DNA from: Microcaldota archaeon
GTDB taxonomy: Archaea; Micrarchaeota; Micrarchaeia; Micrarchaeales; CABMGC01
DNA length: 43,894 nt
Direction of reading: 5' to 3'
NCBI GenBank assembly: GCA_021803945.1
Contig: JAJZKW010000009.1
Coordinates: forward strand, 1 to 43,894
Shown: piece after piece, positions 4,783 through 36,771 of the stretch
Layout of the letters: each line of letters opens with the position of its first letter
How positions within the stretch are numbered: the stretch's first letter is position 1
Translations under genes and position numbers: made by a program
Notes under the pieces: model-generated
The model's input: only the letters and a program-made list of their open reading frames with translations
The model's database searches: none
What the model was told of the DNA's origin: nothing

Positions 4783-6486
4783 TCACCCTAGAATCTCAAG
4801 GAAGGCTGGATCCTCTATGTATTTTATAAGTGCATTGCCGAACTTTACAGCTTCTGCGCCATCGACCACCCTATGATCGAAGACTAATGAGAACGGAAGG
4901 ACCTTTCCGGCCTTTATCTCGCCGTTCTCTATGACAGGCATGTCCCTTATCAGGTGTATGCCCAATATCCCTACATCGGGGTGGTTTATTATCGGGACTG
5001 AAAGGAACCCTCCGCCAAGGCTGCCGACGTTTGTTATAGTGAATGTGGTATCCCTCATCTCGTCTATTGTTATGGACATGTTCTTTATCTTCTCGTGCAG
5101 ATCCTGGATCTCCTTAGCTATTTGTATTATGCTCTTCTTGTCTGCATCTCTTATCACCACTACCTTCAGGCCGTCAGGCGCCTCTGCTGCAAGGCCGATG
5201 TTGTAGTATTTCTTCACTATTATCTCCTGCCTGTCCCTGTCATAGCTTGAGTTCGCCATCGGATTCTCCTTGAGGGCCTCTACTGTGGCTTTTATTATGA
5301 AGGGCAGGATTGTCAGTTTGACTCCCAGGCTTTCGGCGTTCGGCCTCTCCTTTTTAACCGTGTTGTACAGGTTGTTCGCATTTATCAGGTCCATGTGCGT
5401 AAACGTCGGTATTGACAGCGAAAGCTCTACGTTCTTAGCTATCGCTTTCCTCGTGACTGAAAGGAACCCTCCGCCAAGGCTGCCGACGTTTGTTATAGTG
5501 AATGTGGTATCCCTCATCTCGTCTATTGTTATGGACATGTTCTTTATCTTCTCGTGCAGATCCTGGATCTCCTTAGCTATTTGTATTATGCTCTTCTTGT
5601 CTGCATCTCTTATCACCACTACCTTCAGGCCGTCAGGCGCCTCTGCTGCAAGGCCGATGTTGTAGTATTTCTTCACTATTATCTCCTGCCTGTCCCTGTC
5701 ATAGCTTGAGTTCGCCATCGGATTCTCCTTGAGGGCCTCTACTGTGGCTTTTATTATGAAGGGCAGGATTGTCAGTTTGACTCCCAGGCTTTCGGCGTTC
5801 GGCCTCTCCTTTTTAACCGTGTTGTACAGGTTGTTCGCATTTATCAGGTCCATGTGTGTAAACGTTGGTATTGACAGCGAAAGCTCTACGTTCTTAGCTA
5901 TCGCTTTCCTCGTCTGCGACATAGGGACCCTCTGTATGTCTCCTGCATGCCTGTCTTCCAGGAGCTCCGAGAATTTGGGCGTCTGCTTCAGCGGGGTGGC
6001 TGACTGGTTCAGATGGCTCTTGATATCGTTTTCGAGCACCCTTCTCCCGGGCCCTGTCCCGATTACTTTTGATAGGTCAATATTGTTGTCCCTTGCGAGC
6101 TTTCTGACATATGGGCTTGCCAATATCTCAGCGTGCTGCGCAGGCTGTTGCTCTTCCGCATGCATTGCATTTCCGGCTTGCGGCTGTTCGGCCTTCTGCG
6201 CCTGGTACACTTGCTGCTCCTGCGCCTTGGGCTGTGAAACTGCGTTGAGCTCGGAGTCATCCCCTATGTACGCAAGAACGTCACCGACATGCACGACGGT
6301 GTCGTCCTTTATGTTTATCTTTATCTTGCCGCTTATGGGAGATGGCGCGTTGACTATGGCCTTGTCGGTCTCTACCTGCACGACTGGCTGGTCTTCCTTT
6401 ACCTCGTCCCCGTCTTTCACCAGCCATTTCTGGACATGGCCCTCGGTTATCCCCTCCCCTACATCTACAAATTTGATTTCTTTCAT
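4783..6486 (-). CDS. Dihydrolipoamide acyltransferase (E2) with an internal duplication of the catalytic domain
   Basis: A 567-residue E2 core subunit of a 2-oxoacid dehydrogenase complex. The lipoyl domain occupies about 1-78, with the lipoylated Lys in QVETDKAIV (about 42). An Ala/Gln-rich linker and a peripheral subunit-binding domain (SPYVRKLARDNNIDLSKV, about 124-160) follow. The acyltransferase domain ends with the catalytic FDHRVVDGAEA (His about 538). Residues 192-344 are repeated exactly as residues 345-497, through a 459-bp direct DNA repeat; removing one copy leaves 414 residues, the usual E2 length. The reading frame stays open throughout. It may be real, or a strain variant or assembly artefact; if real, the CAT fold would have a 153-residue insertion before its active-site half. 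Confidence 0.92.
   Translation of the reverse strand: MKEIKFVDVGEGITEGHVQKWLVKDGDEVKEDQPVVQVETDKAIVNAPSPISGKIKINIKDDTVVHVGDVLAYIGDDSELNAVSQPKAQEQQVYQAQKAEQPQAGNAMHAEEQQPAQHAEILASPYVRKLARDNNIDLSKVIGTGPGRRVLENDIKSHLNQSATPLKQTPKFSELLEDRHAGDIQRVPMSQTRKAIAKNVELSLSIPTFTHMDLINANNLYNTVKKERPNAESLGVKLTILPFIIKATVEALKENPMANSSYDRDRQEIIVKKYYNIGLAAEAPDGLKVVVIRDADKKSIIQIAKEIQDLHEKIKNMSITIDEMRDTTFTITNVGSLGGGFLSVTRKAIAKNVELSLSIPTFTHMDLINANNLYNTVKKERPNAESLGVKLTILPFIIKATVEALKENPMANSSYDRDRQEIIVKKYYNIGLAAEAPDGLKVVVIRDADKKSIIQIAKEIQDLHEKIKNMSITIDEMRDTTFTITNVGSLGGGFLSVPIINHPDVGILGIHLIRDMPVIENGEIKAGKVLPFSLVFDHRVVDGAEAVKFGNALIKYIEDPAFLEILG
4996..5454. repeat. 459-bp tandem direct repeat in E2 gene, copy A
   Basis: This unit is followed immediately and without gap by copy B (5455-5913). 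Read by eye, the two differ at only two positions, 5398 (c) against 5857 (t) and 5407 (c) against 5866 (t). Both changes are silent in the encoded protein. The unit is 153 codons long, so the frame is kept. Confidence 0.95.
5455..5913. repeat. 459-bp tandem direct repeat in E2 gene, copy B
   Basis: Second copy of the unit at 4996-5454, with a sharp junction at 5454/5455. On the coding (minus) strand this is the first-translated copy and joins the unique N-terminal part of E2 at residue 192; the other copy joins the unique C-terminal part. Confidence 0.95.
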
Positions 6487-16264: not shown

Positions 16265-16385
16265 TGGCGGTGGGGAGATTTGAACACCCGATCTCTAGAT
16301 TTCTTAGCAGTCATAGCAAAATGCTCATCACTCATAAAGCTTAGCATATGAGTCTAGCGCTCTAACCAGGCTGAGCTACACCGCC
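16265..16385 (-). tRNA. tRNA with CAU anticodon (Met, or Ile2), with a 46-nt intron
   Basis: Minus-strand cloverleaf: acceptor GGCGGTG/CACCGCC with A73, D-stem GCTC/GAGC, anticodon stem CTAGA/TCTAG, loop CTCATAA after splicing, T-stem GGGTG/CTCCC (one U-U mismatch) and T-loop TTCAAAT. The anticodon is CAU. A 46-nt insertion (16301-16346) falls at the canonical 37/38 site; within it TATGAGT pairs with the anticodon region, as expected for a bulge-helix-bulge precursor. The mature length is 75 nt without encoded CCA. CAU could mean elongator Met or agmatidine-modified Ile2; features here do not decide. Confidence 0.92.
16301..16346 (-). other. tRNA(CAU) intron, canonical 37/38 position
   Basis: 46 nt from TGCTAAG to AAGAA on the minus strand. 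It pairs with the anticodon through TATGAGT and has an internal GCAT...ATGC-type stem, consistent with splicing by the archaeal tRNA endonuclease. Confidence 0.85.
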
Positions 16386-23493: not shown

Positions 23494-23617
23494 GATGATT
23501 CTCTTGATTAGCAAAAAATAAATAGGTAGGCTGTTGATTTTTTGCCTCGCGTACCTCTGGTGCGTCGGTTATTAATACTTTTCGCATTGAGTATAATACA
23601 AAAACCAGGTGCGATAT

Positions 23618-23842
23618 ATGACGCAGGAAAGACCGTTTGACCTTATAAACAAGTCGATAGGACAGCAGGCGCTCATAAGGCTAAAGAACGGCAAGGACAT
23701 ACGCGGCAAGGTAGTATCATTTGACGCTCATATGAACATAGTCATTGAGGATGCAGAAGAGCTTGAGGGAGGAAACCTCGCCGCGAAGCTCGGCACCATA
23801 CTCCTGCGCGGAGGCAACATACTTTTCATATCTCCTGTCTAA
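23618..23842 (+). CDS. LSm (Sm-like) RNA-binding protein
   Basis: A 74-residue archaeal Sm protein forming a ring that binds U-rich RNA. The Sm1 motif is ALIRLKNGKDIRGKVVSFDAHMNIVIEDAEE and the Sm2 motif is LGTILLRGGNILFISP. The track starts at GTG 23609, which lies inside the AGGTG ribosome-binding site; ATG 23618 (MTQERPFDL) is preferred. The stop is only 4 bp ahead of tRNA-Ala on the same strand, a linkage of some interest because archaeal LSm proteins bind tRNA and precursor RNAs. Confidence 0.93.
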   Translation: MTQERPFDLINKSIGQQALIRLKNGKDIRGKVVSFDAHMNIVIEDAEELEGGNLAAKLGTILLRGGNILFISPV

Positions 23843-23846
23843 TTGT

Positions 23847-23945
23847 GGGCTCCTGGCGCAACGGTAGCGCGCCTGCATGGCATGCAGGAGGTTGCGGGTT
23901 CGAAACGGGCTTTGAAAAAAGCCTGGGAAAATCCCGCGGAGTCCA
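23847..23945 (+). tRNA. tRNA-Ala (GGC) with a 27-nt intron in the T-loop
   Basis: Acceptor GGGCTCC/GGAGTCC (one G-U) with A73, D-stem GCGC/GCGC, anticodon stem CCTGC/GCAGG with loop ATGGCAT (anticodon GGC), and T-stem GCGGG/CCCGC. The T-loop is interrupted: TTCGAA at 23899-23904, then 27 extra bases, then T before CCCGC. Removing them gives a standard 7-nt T-loop and a 72-nt tRNA. The insert folds into CGGGCTTT/AAAGCCTG capped by GAAA. This is a non-canonical intron near position 59/60; the exact cut is uncertain by a base or two because of flanking A residues. Confidence 0.9.
23905..23931 (+). other. Non-canonical tRNA-Ala intron (T-loop, about 59/60)
   Basis: 27 nt with an 8-bp hairpin (one G-U) and a GAAA loop. 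The anticodon loop is uninterrupted, so this is the only intron of this tRNA. Confidence 0.82.
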
Positions 23946-28032: not shown

Positions 28033-28120
28033 GGGCCCGTAGCTCAGCTTGGATAGAGCAGCACCCTTCTAAAAACATGAGGAAAGGTGATGGTCGCGGG
28101 TTCAAATCCCGTCGGGCCCG
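28033..28120 (+). tRNA. tRNA-Arg (TCT) with a short (about 13-nt) intron
   Basis: Acceptor GGGCCCG/CGGGCCC (perfect) with G73, D-stem GCTC/GAGC, anticodon stem GCACC/GGTGA (outermost pair mismatched), and T-arm GCGGG TTCAAAT CCCGT. The anticodon loop reads CTTCTA then 13 extra bases (28072-28084) then A, restoring the loop CTTCTAA with anticodon TCT. The mature length is 75 nt, no CCA encoded. The intron is near the minimum size for archaea and sits at 37/38. Confidence 0.88.
28072..28084 (+). other. tRNA-Arg(TCT) intron, about 13 nt
   Basis: Insertion between A37 and A38. Its exact borders are uncertain because of flanking A residues. Confidence 0.7.
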
Positions 28121-30017: not shown

Positions 30018-33000
30018 GGAATATGGAGATCGAGGAATATTTCAGGGTCATGTCTTCTGACTTCGAGAGGGCTTATGCCACTGCAAAGGCCGCCAGGTCG
30101 AAGGGGCTGGATCCAAAGGAGACTGTGGAGATATTTCCGGCTCCCGACATGCCAAGCCGGGTCGAGGGACTCATAAACGTTGGCGGCCTGGCGGACATGA
30201 TAAGGAGGCTGTCGAAAGGGCAGTCGCGTAGCAAGCTTGCATTCAACGCGGTTGAGGAGATCTGCAAGAATGACAGGTTTAGCAATATCGAGACGATAAA
30301 GAGGATTGAGTTTGCCGTTAGGGTAGGCTCTGCCATACTAACGGAGGGAGTGCTGGTGGCCCCTACTGAAGGCATAACAGGGATAAAGAGATACAAGAAC
30401 CCCGATGGCACAGATTATATAGCAGTGCTTTATGCTGGGCCGATAAGGGGAGCGGGAGGCACTGCCGCTGCGCTCTCTGTTGCGCTTGCGGATTATGCGC
30501 GCAGGATGTTCAGTATAGGGGCGTATAAGCCAACGCATGATGAGATAGAGAGATATGTGGAGGAGGTCGAGCTTTATCATTCAAGGTCTGCAAGGCTACA
30601 GTACAAGCCGTCGGACGACGACCTGCGCACGATAATAAGCAACTGCCCAGTATGCGTGGATGGGGTGCCGTCTGACATGATAGAGGTAGGGGTGCACGCA
30701 AACCTGAAGAGGACGGGATACGATGGCAAGGAAGTCCACATGTCAAACAGGGTAAGAGGAGGGGTGCCGCTGGTATTGTGCGAGGGCATAGCGCAGAAGG
30801 CCAAGAAACTGATCAGAGAGGTGAAGCCGTTCGGGTTGGAATGGGACTGGCTGAACGGGATCATAAAGGTAGATATAAAGAGGTCAGAGCCTGACAGGCC
30901 ACAGATAGGGTTCCTTGACGAGCTTGTTGCTGGAAGGCCCATATTGGCGTATCCAGGACATATTGGGGGGTTCAGGCTCAGGTATGGGAGGAGCAGGCTC
31001 ACAGGCATAGCGGCAAAGGGGTTCAGCCCTGCCACAATGATCATAGCGATGAGCTTCATAGCAGTAGGCACGCAGCTCAAGATGGAGTCTGCAGGGAAGG
31101 GATGCATAGCAGTGCCTGTAGATTCGCTTGAGGGCCCGTTCGTGAAGCTGAAATCTGGGGAATCGATGAGGATAAACGATGCTGAAACCGCGATGATGTA
31201 CAAGGACCAGATAGAGAGGATATTCTCCCTTGGAGACATACTGATAACGTTCGGCGATTTCAGGAAGTCCAATTCGCAGCTTAAGCCCACGAGCTATGTT
31301 GAGGAGCTTTGGGAACTGCAGCTTGAGAAGGCCGGATTCAGAGGCAAGATAGACCATAAAACAATCGGGTTTAATGAGGCCTATGACCTATCGACCAAGT
31401 ATTCGGTTCCGATACACCCTAAATTCCTGCTAGAATTTCAGGCAGTGGACAAGAATAGCATAGTCGAACTTGCAATGCATATAATAAGGAATTCTGAGGC
31501 CATGGGGAGCGACATCTATGGATTGGAGGGGCTTAGCCTTGAGAGGAATGAAAATATAGGAAGGATCCTTGACCTTCTGAACGTGCCGCATAAGCAGACT
31601 CCGGAAAGGATCATTATAGGAGCGGATTTCTCAAAGAGCATAGTATCTTCGCTTGGGCTGGTCGATTCGGACAAAAAAACTTTGAAGGTCAATGAGCTTG
31701 CCATAGACAAGTATGACATGGGCGCGCAGGATGCGCTGGCGATGCTGGGTGCAGTTTCTCCTTATAAAATACCAAGGAGGTCCACATATATAGCCGCAAG
31801 GATAGGCAGGCCTGAGAAGGCGAAGGAGAGGCTGATGAAGCCTGCACCTAACGTACTCTTCCCGATAGGAGGCTTTGGCGGCAGGAACAGGAATATAACC
31901 TCTGCGTATATATCTGGGTCGAAGAGGTTCAGGCCAGATATAAACATTGAGTTGGCCAGGTATAAGTGCTCGAACTGCAAGAGGACAATGCCTTCCTCGT
32001 TCTGCCATGACTGCGGCAAGAGGACATATGTCGAGAGGGTGTGCCCTAACTGCAGGGCTGTCTTGGGCGGCCTGAGATGCGATAGGTGCGGCATGGACAC
32101 TGTGGCTTTCGAGAGCAGGAATGTGGACCTCACGAAGCTGGTGCTTGACGGGATGAAGACCATCGGCATAACCAAGATGCCGGCCGTGGTCAAGGGAGTT
32201 AAGGGCATGATGAGCAGGGACAAGACTATTGAACCCATTGAGAAAGGCATGCTCAGGGCGCTCAACGGAGTGTACATATTCAAGGACGGGACTGCGAGAT
32301 TCGACGCGACAGACGCCCCGATGACCCATTTCTACCCTGAGGAGATAGGAGTGGGTGTAGAAAGGCTGAGGGAACTGGGCTACACTGAGGATTACAAGGG
32401 CAATGAGCTTCTTGATCCGGGCCAGCTGGTGGAGATGAGGCACCAGGACGTGATATTGAGCAGGCACGGAGCCGATTATCTGCTGCGTGTCGCGAAGTTC
32501 GTGGATGGGATGCTGGAAAAAGTATACGGCCTTTCGGCGTTCTACAATGCAGATACTATAGACGACATGATAGGCAAGCAGGTGATAACCCTCTCGCCGC
32601 ACACCTCATGCGGAGTCCTTGGCAGGATTATAGGCTTCACTGATGCAAATGTCGGTTTCGCGCATCCGTACATGATATCTGCGAGGAGGAGGAATTGCGA
32701 CGGGGATGAGGACACCACTATGCTGCTGCTTGATGCACTGATAAACTTCTCGAGGGATTACCTGCCGCAGACGATAGGTGGGACCATGGATACTCCGCTT
32801 ATACTGACGCTGAACGTGAAGCCCGAAGAAGTCGACGACGAAGTGCACGGGATGGAGACTGTAGAGAGATATCCTATTGAATTCTACGAAAAGACCTATA
32901 CTAGTTCCCCGCCTTCTGAGATAAGGATCGGGTGTGTTGAGGACAGGCTCGGCACAAAGGAGATATTTGGGGATATAATGTTTACCCATGGCTCCTCGGC

Positions 33001-34366: not shown

Positions 34367-36771
34367 AATCTCCTCTGCGACCCGCTTCCCTTGAGCTCCT
34401 CCTCGCTGAACCCAAGCTCCTTTAGTATCTTCAGGGTTGCCGGAAGGACCTGGTGGTTTATGTAGTAATCTGGATCGTACGTCTTCGCAGTGTCCTCTAT
34501 CTCGGCCTTCTCTGATATTGAATTGCCGTTCTTCGTTATTATATACCCTATGGTGGCCCCTTCTAGCTCGTCTCTCCTCTTCACCCCTTCATCGATGGCC
34601 CTCTTCGCTGCATTCAGCTCTGGGGACTTTGAATCGTAGCTCCCTATCTTCTTCCTGAGCTGCGTGTATATGACAAGGTCTTTCATGTTGACGTTGCCAT
34701 CCTTCAGGCTCTGCACCACTTCCTTGACTATGCTGAGCGCCTTCTCTTTGCTGCCCTCCTTCAGTATCGCCTCAAGCACCTTCCTCTGCGTCTCCCTTGA
34801 GATGTTTGACCAGTCCCTTCTTACCAGCTCGAATCCTCTGATCTTTATCCTTCCGGCTTCAGAAAGGAGCGCGTATTTCTTCTTCGCCCCTGATTCTGAT
34901 TTTCCTTTCTTGCCAACGAATACGCCCCTGACATAGAAGTCTTCTAGCTCAAGCTCCATCGCGCCTGGAAGCTTCTTGTTTAATGAGAGCATGAAGTTAT
35001 GTGCATCGTCCTTCGTCTTGTTCTGCATTAATAAGAACACGCTGTCAGTATCCGAATATATGACTTTGAACCCGTTGCTTTCTGCCTCGCTTATGGTATT
35101 TGTGATTGTTTCTCTACCGAAGGCGGTAACGCTTCCTGCGCAGTCCCTTGAATACCATCGTGACCTTGCATATCCCAGATATCCGTAGAATGAGTTTGCA
35201 AGTATCTTAAGTGCCTGTGACCTTGCGGCAAGGAACTTGTTGTCCGGATCCTTCTTGTATTTCTTCTTTATCTCGGACCTTTCCGCTATGAGCAGCTCAA
35301 GCACCTTTGGCACTATTCCCTTTGGTGTTTTCTTGAATTTTGAGCCTGTAGGCGACTCGTAGTAATCAGTGCAGTCCTTGCACAGGGTCGATGGATCAAT
35401 ATTGTTCGCTATTATTATTGAGGGATACAGTCCTCTGAAGTCGAATACTGCTATGTTGTCATATATCCCGGCTTCGGGGGTTTTGACGTATGCGCCTTCT
35501 ATTGGGTTTGAGAGCCTACTGCTTATCTCGCCCTCGCTGGGCCTATTTGGTATTATCTCATTGTTTAGTGTAGCATATCGCATAAGGAGGTATTCGACCA
35601 GTTGCCCTGTGGTTGACACTGCGGCTTCTGCCAGTGTTGTTGATGCCACCTTGGACACCTCGATTTCAAGGGGAAGGAAGAAGTTGTATAGGTGGTTGAG
35701 GGCAAGCGAATCGCTCAGGGAGTACTCTGCAAGGACTTCGAGGTCTTCCTTGCTCCCGTCCCACTGCTGCCATATGTTCTTCTTGTCCACAGTCAGCTTG
35801 ATATCCCCAGTTATTGCGCCGTATACGTCCCCCAGGGTGAACCTGTTTATCTTAAGCAGCTTTTCCGACGCGCCGACTATTGAGACGAACCTGGCGACAT
35901 TGTATTCGTCAAGGTTTATCCTTCCGGGGATTTTCACTGACTGTATCAGGCCGTGGTGTTCCTCCCGTGCCTCTTCCCCGTATCTTGTTATGTCGAAGTG
36001 TATTCCAAGCTTCTTGGACCTCTTCATCAGATAGGGCAGGTCGAAATTTGAGGAGTTATAGCCAACTATTATGTCTGGATCAAGCTCTTTTATGACTTTC
36101 ACGAACTCCAATATCATGCTTTTCTCGTCTTTGCACAGCGTGACAAACGGCCTGTCTATGGGCTTCGTCGTTATGACTCCGCTCCTTTCGTTGTTCGCAT
36201 AGCTTATCATTATGCATGGGTCTATGTCCGGCCTTGGGGCGATATTGGGGTTGTAGGTCTCTATGTCGAAGCAGAGGTGGGTCAGGCCTGGCTCTGAACT
36301 TCCAGGACCCATATGATCTACGATCAGCTTTCCGTCCTCCTCGTGCGCTTTTACCCTGACTCCGGAGAGAGGGGAGATGCGTTTGTCTATTAGATACCGT
36401 TTCCAGAACAATATGTCGTATTCATACCTTTGCCCGAATTCTGCAAGGTGTTCGCTTAGTTTCGGTATGCTCCTCGTGTTGTTCGTGGATATGGCTACAA
36501 GGCTTGCTTCCCTGCCTGCTACATTCAACTTCGATTTTGTAGCAGAGTGTATGCCTATCTTCTCTCCGTCGTGGAGTATCTCCATCTTGGCCAAGTCCGA
36601 TTCGGCTATTCCCTGATTGTGCGGATTGAGGAAGAAATACGGGTAAAAACCGGTATCGAAAAGTGAGTATATCTTCCCTTCCGATTTCAGCGTTATGCGT
36701 ATTATGCTGCGGTCACCGATTGATACGTAGTCTATATCGACTATCACTCCTTCTAACTCAATATGCTCCAT
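34363..36771 (-). CDS. Family B DNA polymerase
   Basis: An 802-residue PolB. Exonuclease motifs: LCFDIETYNP (Exo I), NSSNFDLPYL (Exo II) and YSLSDSLA (Exo III). Polymerase motifs: DFRGLYPSII (A), KILANSFYGYLGY (B) and VIYSDTDSVFL (C), then KGKSESGAKKKYAL. All catalytic acids are intact, so both proofreading and synthesis should work. There is no intein. The C-terminus ELGFSEEELKGSGSQRRL lacks an obvious PIP box. DPANN genomes usually carry both PolB and PolD; here they are neighbours in convergent operons with MetAP between. Confidence 0.96.
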   Translation of the reverse strand: MEHIELEGVIVDIDYVSIGDRSIIRITLKSEGKIYSLFDTGFYPYFFLNPHNQGIAESDLAKMEILHDGEKIGIHSATKSKLNVAGREASLVAISTNNTRSIPKLSEHLAEFGQRYEYDILFWKRYLIDKRISPLSGVRVKAHEEDGKLIVDHMGPGSSEPGLTHLCFDIETYNPNIAPRPDIDPCIMISYANNERSGVITTKPIDRPFVTLCKDEKSMILEFVKVIKELDPDIIVGYNSSNFDLPYLMKRSKKLGIHFDITRYGEEAREEHHGLIQSVKIPGRINLDEYNVARFVSIVGASEKLLKINRFTLGDVYGAITGDIKLTVDKKNIWQQWDGSKEDLEVLAEYSLSDSLALNHLYNFFLPLEIEVSKVASTTLAEAAVSTTGQLVEYLLMRYATLNNEIIPNRPSEGEISSRLSNPIEGAYVKTPEAGIYDNIAVFDFRGLYPSIIIANNIDPSTLCKDCTDYYESPTGSKFKKTPKGIVPKVLELLIAERSEIKKKYKKDPDNKFLAARSQALKILANSFYGYLGYARSRWYSRDCAGSVTAFGRETITNTISEAESNGFKVIYSDTDSVFLLMQNKTKDDAHNFMLSLNKKLPGAMELELEDFYVRGVFVGKKGKSESGAKKKYALLSEAGRIKIRGFELVRRDWSNISRETQRKVLEAILKEGSKEKALSIVKEVVQSLKDGNVNMKDLVIYTQLRKKIGSYDSKSPELNAAKRAIDEGVKRRDELEGATIGYIITKNGNSISEKAEIEDTAKTYDPDYYINHQVLPATLKILKELGFSEEELKGSGSQRRL

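Follow-up and report, generated by a model that had tools for sequence, protein, structure and literature searches.

A micrarchaeal tRNA-Ala(GGC) gene interrupted in its T-loop, and the recurrence of inserts at position 59/60 within its order

The gene at positions 23847-23945 of the window (the whole stretch of DNA analysed here, 43,894 nt) is almost certainly a functional, single-copy tRNA-Ala(GGC) of a micrarchaeon, interrupted by a short archaeal tRNA intron at position 59/60 for which we propose splicing by an epsilon2 endonuclease. Both intron insertion at 59/60 and the epsilon2 enzyme have been described before, so the single gene is a further example of a known intron class; what is noteworthy is the spread of such introns in the lineage. 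The features referred to below are as follows.

23609-23842, + strand: LSm protein gene, 77 aa (PF01423, 72.1 bits), ending 4 nt before the tRNA
23847-23945, + strand: tRNA-Ala(GGC) with insert, 99 nt unspliced
23847-23904, + strand: 5' exon, running from the acceptor 5' strand up to A59; its sequence is the same as in L062 and L063, orthologues that lack the intron
23879-23881, + strand: anticodon GGC, in the 5' exon
23905-23931, + strand: 27-nt T-loop (59/60) intron; empty sites in 19 relatives
23906-23925, + strand: intron helix of 8 bp with a GAAA loop (23906-23913 pairs with 23918-23925)
23926, + strand: G opposite G57 (23902), a mismatch
23927-23929, + strand: intron GAA, on comparative evidence the proposed partner of U54-U55-C56 (23899-23901)
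23932-23945, + strand: 3' exon, comprising U60, the T-stem 3' strand, the acceptor 3' strand and the discriminator A

The interrupted gene and its product

Element by element, the gene reads GGGCTCC TG GCGC AACGGTA GCGC G CCTGC ATGGCAT GCAGG AGGTT GCGGG TTCGAA ACGGGCTTTGAAAAAAGCCTGGGAAAA T CCCGC GGAGTCC A, in the order 5' exon, insert, 3' exon. The insert lies in the T-loop, 3' of nucleotide 59, and its boundaries are ambiguous by up to 2 nt, as 23904-23930 or 23903-23929 would give an identical product. Every acceptor and T-stem pair forms, and the acceptor includes the G3:U70 pair, the alanine identity element. CCA is absent from the encoded 3' end. The original prediction gave the coordinates, anticodon and insert length correctly, and the separate hairpin that it described is borne out by thermodynamic folding, in which the 8-bp helix capped by GAAA has pair probabilities of 0.95-1.0. 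It also held that removing the insert leaves a perfect tRNA, and the product is indeed a standard one, letter-identical to the intron-free L062 (genome G030) and L063 (genome G010, of the same genus), with a T-arm and acceptor letter-identical to those of tRNA-Ala(UGC) of its own genome. Because of these identities, we regard the gene as more than a chance resemblance.

Standard tRNA finders handle the gene poorly: ARAGORN did not report one at 23847-23945, and the Rfam tRNA model scores only a fragment, at 23.8 bits; the cut-off is 29, and the insert explains the shortfall. As the finders tried miss or under-score such genes, Micrarchaeota tRNA sets may look falsely incomplete. Poor recognition would also suit a nonfunctional tRNA copy disrupted by an insertion, the GCC and GCU alanine codons then being read by another tRNA, but this explanation is very unlikely. 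The exons are intact, with every stem pair and G3:U70 in place, and inserts at the identical site in 33 species would not be expected from decay. Moreover, this is the sole tRNA-Ala(GGC) found in the genome (0.9 Mb, 26 contigs). A second intact copy, which the original prediction would have taken as a sign of a pseudogene, was not found in this assembly, which is 94% complete, so that one could sit on a missing piece. The further alanine tRNAs of the genome are a tRNA-Ala(UGC) with an anticodon-loop intron and a tRNA-Ala(CGC).

Bulge-helix-bulge spacing and the splicing enzymes

The pattern GCGGGTTCRAA-N(8,38)-TYCCGC, searched for in 295 genomes of the phylum, matches 126 of them, nearly all in the window's order; a reversed control pattern has matches in six of the 295. 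The search yielded 133 distinct inserts, whose 3' ends were unselected beyond the T-stem. Among them, nucleotide 57 and the insert show covariation, and the spacing conforms to a bulge-helix-bulge motif. Insert position i(n-4), the partner of C56, is G in 133 of 133, while A is found at i(n-3) in 115 and at i(n-2) in 115. Position i(n-5) is U in 110 of the 116 inserts in genes with A57 and C in 10 of the 17 in genes with G57. Nucleotide 57 and i(n-5) are paired in 123 of 133, compared with a mean of 114 and a maximum of 119 in 20,000 shuffles, a figure that is not a strict probability because the insert sequences are related. Pairing between i2-i4 and i(n-6)-i(n-8) is found in 70 of 107 inserts, compared with at most 34 for registers outside the same helix. 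An inner helix starting at i2:i(n-6) is spaced exactly as in a motif of two 3-nt bulges on either side of a 4-bp helix.

The window copy has three of the four central-helix pairs together with the G57-G mismatch, and the congener G011 likewise has G57 opposite G. In thermodynamic folding, an open internal loop is favoured by 2.9 kcal/mol over the structure with the central helix. As the central helix is thus absent from the minimum-energy fold of this copy, its bulge-helix-bulge reading rests on comparison with relatives. Given the G-G mismatch, the window intron is predicted to be a mildly relaxed substrate, and to that extent the original claim that T-loop introns need an enzyme with relaxed substrate choice is retained. 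Its general form is not, since strict bulge-helix-bulge spacing prevails among the T-loop introns compared here and the T-loop position alone therefore needs no relaxed enzyme.

Retention of the insert in the mature tRNA, where it would extend the T-arm, would be in keeping with a hairpin that is stable alone. However, the inserts vary freely in length (14-48 nt) and sequence while the exon-adjacent pairs keep bulge-helix-bulge spacing, insert-free orthologues show no other difference, and the T-loop is required for the D-loop/T-loop elbow, all of which make retention highly improbable.

We instead favour removal of the intron by splicing. In the precursor, the intron would form its hairpin and U54-U55-C56 would pair with the GAA near the intron 3' end, leaving two bulges, A58-A59-A(i1) and A-A-U60. 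Both bulges would be cut by the epsilon2 endonuclease, and RtcB with archease would ligate the exons into a normal T-loop, UUCGAAU. For the window intron, cleavage, exon ligation and the precise splice sites are all inferred from this model.

Genes for all of these enzymes are present in the genome, and its relatives are Candidatus Micrarchaeota, in agreement with the ARMAN-type archaeon and epsilon2 endonuclease that had been anticipated. EndA, encoded on contig 8, is a single protein of ~390 aa (alphaN-alpha-betaC) of the full-length epsilon2 type, homologous along the entire ARMAN-2 EndA: residues 15-393 align with residues 9-387 of 4FZ2 (503 bits), and the protein also aligns over its full length with 9W2K. 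It contains PF02778 once and PF01974 in two stretches. The catalytic triad Y240/H257/K288 and Y164/K165 of the ARMAN-specific loop are invariant in 29 sequences and align with Y236/H251/K282 and Y160/K161 of ARMAN-2; in the EndA-tree count described below, 5 of the 48 EndA sequences departed from the motif patterns applied. The set of enzymes is completed by RtcB (542 bits) and archease (74.5 bits).

The window enzyme thus aligns full-length with the ARMAN-2 epsilon2 endonuclease (PDB 4FZ2, 9W2K; PMC12397907, PMC6379350) and keeps its triad and Tyr-Lys pair. The ARMAN-2 enzyme cleaves relaxed (non-strict) substrates (PMC12397907), and the ARMAN enzyme has been reported to cleave non-canonical introns at various positions (PMC4033280). 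Archaeal pre-tRNA T-loops carry such introns, of which the epsilon2 enzyme removes relaxed ones (PMC6379350). The cleavage tests with the ARMAN-2 enzyme differ from the present case in using pre-tRNA-Ile(UAU) and pre-tRNA-Cys(GCA), and no T-loop term occurs in PMC12397907.

Filled and empty sites in the order

We compared 52 tRNA-Ala(GGC) genes, one from the window and the others from 51 relatives in its order. A T-loop insert of 14-48 nt occupies exactly this site in 33 of them, and 19 have none. The LSm gene is a conserved upstream neighbour of tRNA-Ala(GGC) (36 of 53 species) and lies upstream of both insert-bearing and insert-free loci; many of the filled and empty sites are therefore orthologous. 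T-loop inserts outside the window's order are rare (G215, L267). Matches to a second pattern outside the order were mostly unlike a T-arm by eye and were left out of the counts. The epsilon2 enzyme alone is a weakened explanation for the inserts, as 272 of the 295 phylum genomes match the window EndA, whereas T-loop inserts of the searched pattern are concentrated in the window's order.

In one relative, G043, EndA shows 100% identity to 4FZ2 across 379 residues, and on this basis the genome is taken to be that of ARMAN-2. Its tRNA-Ala(GGC) (L051) also carries an orthologous T-loop intron, of 20 nt and with a complete central helix, and a 16-nt T-loop intron is found in the tRNA-Ala(GGC) of G042, whose 952,257-bp genome is a single contig. 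In a draft of 26 contigs, an artefact of assembly or sequencing might be suspected, but with the same site interrupted in 32 other genomes, these two included, such an origin is extremely improbable.

A tree of EndA from 48 species implies a minimum of 13 changes between insert-bearing and insert-free states. This tree is built from EndA alone and is weakly supported, the changes are counted without direction, and label shuffling gave counts as low in 63 of 300 cases, so that 13 is not clearly below the shuffled values; the count therefore establishes turnover and not its direction. In G022, the inserts of tRNA-Ala(GGC) and tRNA-Ala(UGC) (L053, L104) are clearly alike and the exons differ, and in G048 an identical insert is common to tRNA-Arg(CCU) and tRNA-Arg(UCU). 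From these resemblances, intron copying between tRNA genes is the likely origin of the alike inserts in both genomes. Intron transposition among tRNA genes of Thermoproteales (Fujishima 2010, as related in PMC4033280 and PMC4090602) appears, in those accounts, similar in that like introns recur in the tRNA genes of one genome, as in the alanine pair of G022 and the two arginine genes of G048; here the lineage is another one and the site is in the T-loop.

A broader reading is that one Micrarchaeota order has an intron hot spot at 59/60 throughout the lineage, with repeated gain, loss and copying between tRNA genes (Ala, Arg, Ser, Leu) that exceeds the cases catalogued so far and supplies a series of naturally occurring substrates, strict as well as relaxed, beside a well-conserved epsilon2 endonuclease. 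We consider the balance for and against this reading to be about even. A partial literature search found no paper describing order-wide recurrence at 59/60. Dozens of filled and empty sites in one tRNA gene, among which the central helix varies naturally, constitute matched natural sequences, with which both epsilon2 substrate rules and tRNA intron turnover become testable.

Known intron classes and other interrupted tRNA genes

Positions 59/60, 20/21 and 30/31 are among the known non-canonical intron positions of archaea (PMC4090602). The window intron resembles the 59/60 introns described there in its position, short length, intact exons and proposed bulge-helix-bulge-like exon-intron pairing. 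The rich sources named in that review are Crenarchaeota and Nanoarchaeota, whereas here the host is a micrarchaeon and the central helix has one mismatch. Permuted tRNAs of Thermofilum pendens and Cyanidioschyzon merolae (PMC3218864) share the 59/60 T-loop junction, but in those genes the 3' half lies upstream, whereas here the order is normal, with the 5' half first; a permuted tRNA gene was therefore rejected.

Several other tRNA genes of the window genome (G000) are interrupted; the isotypes of the Leu and Ser tRNAs with T-loop or D-loop inserts were read from their anticodon loops by eye. tRNA-Leu(CAA) (L037, G000:C20:16371-16468, minus strand) has a 13-nt T-loop insert, identified by pattern search and inspection, and lies ~250 bp from the RtcB ligase gene (C20:16717-18021). 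Two serine tRNAs, likewise identified by pattern search and inspection, each combine a T-loop insert with a second interruption: an insert in the anticodon-stem 5' strand for tRNA-Ser(CGA) (L270, G000:C5:51560-51860) and an anticodon-loop intron for tRNA-Ser(GGA) (L271, G000:C14:13720-14020). Both are absent from the genome's Rfam tRNA list and were not found by ARAGORN. An insert of ~20 nt is found in the D-loop of tRNA-Leu(UAA) (L035, G000:C20:about 5895-6001). tRNA-Trp(CCA) (L036, G000:C20:about 31941-32086) has a long anticodon-loop intron, and only its 3' part scores as a tRNA. Within the window, intron-bearing tRNAs with anticodon-loop inserts at 28033-28120 (+ strand) and 16265-16385 (- strand) were read as Arg(UCU) and Met(CAU), respectively.

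We also observed an orphan T-arm and acceptor 3' end of tRNA-Ile(UAU) (L045, G000:C11, match 35245-35262), ~630 bp downstream of that gene, which is possibly the attachment site of an integrated element. In the window, an ORF for a 2-oxoacid dehydrogenase acyltransferase (4783-6486, minus strand) matches PF00198 in two stretches and contains a long direct repeat (KAIAKNVELSLSIPTF... twice), reflecting either a real duplication or an assembly error.
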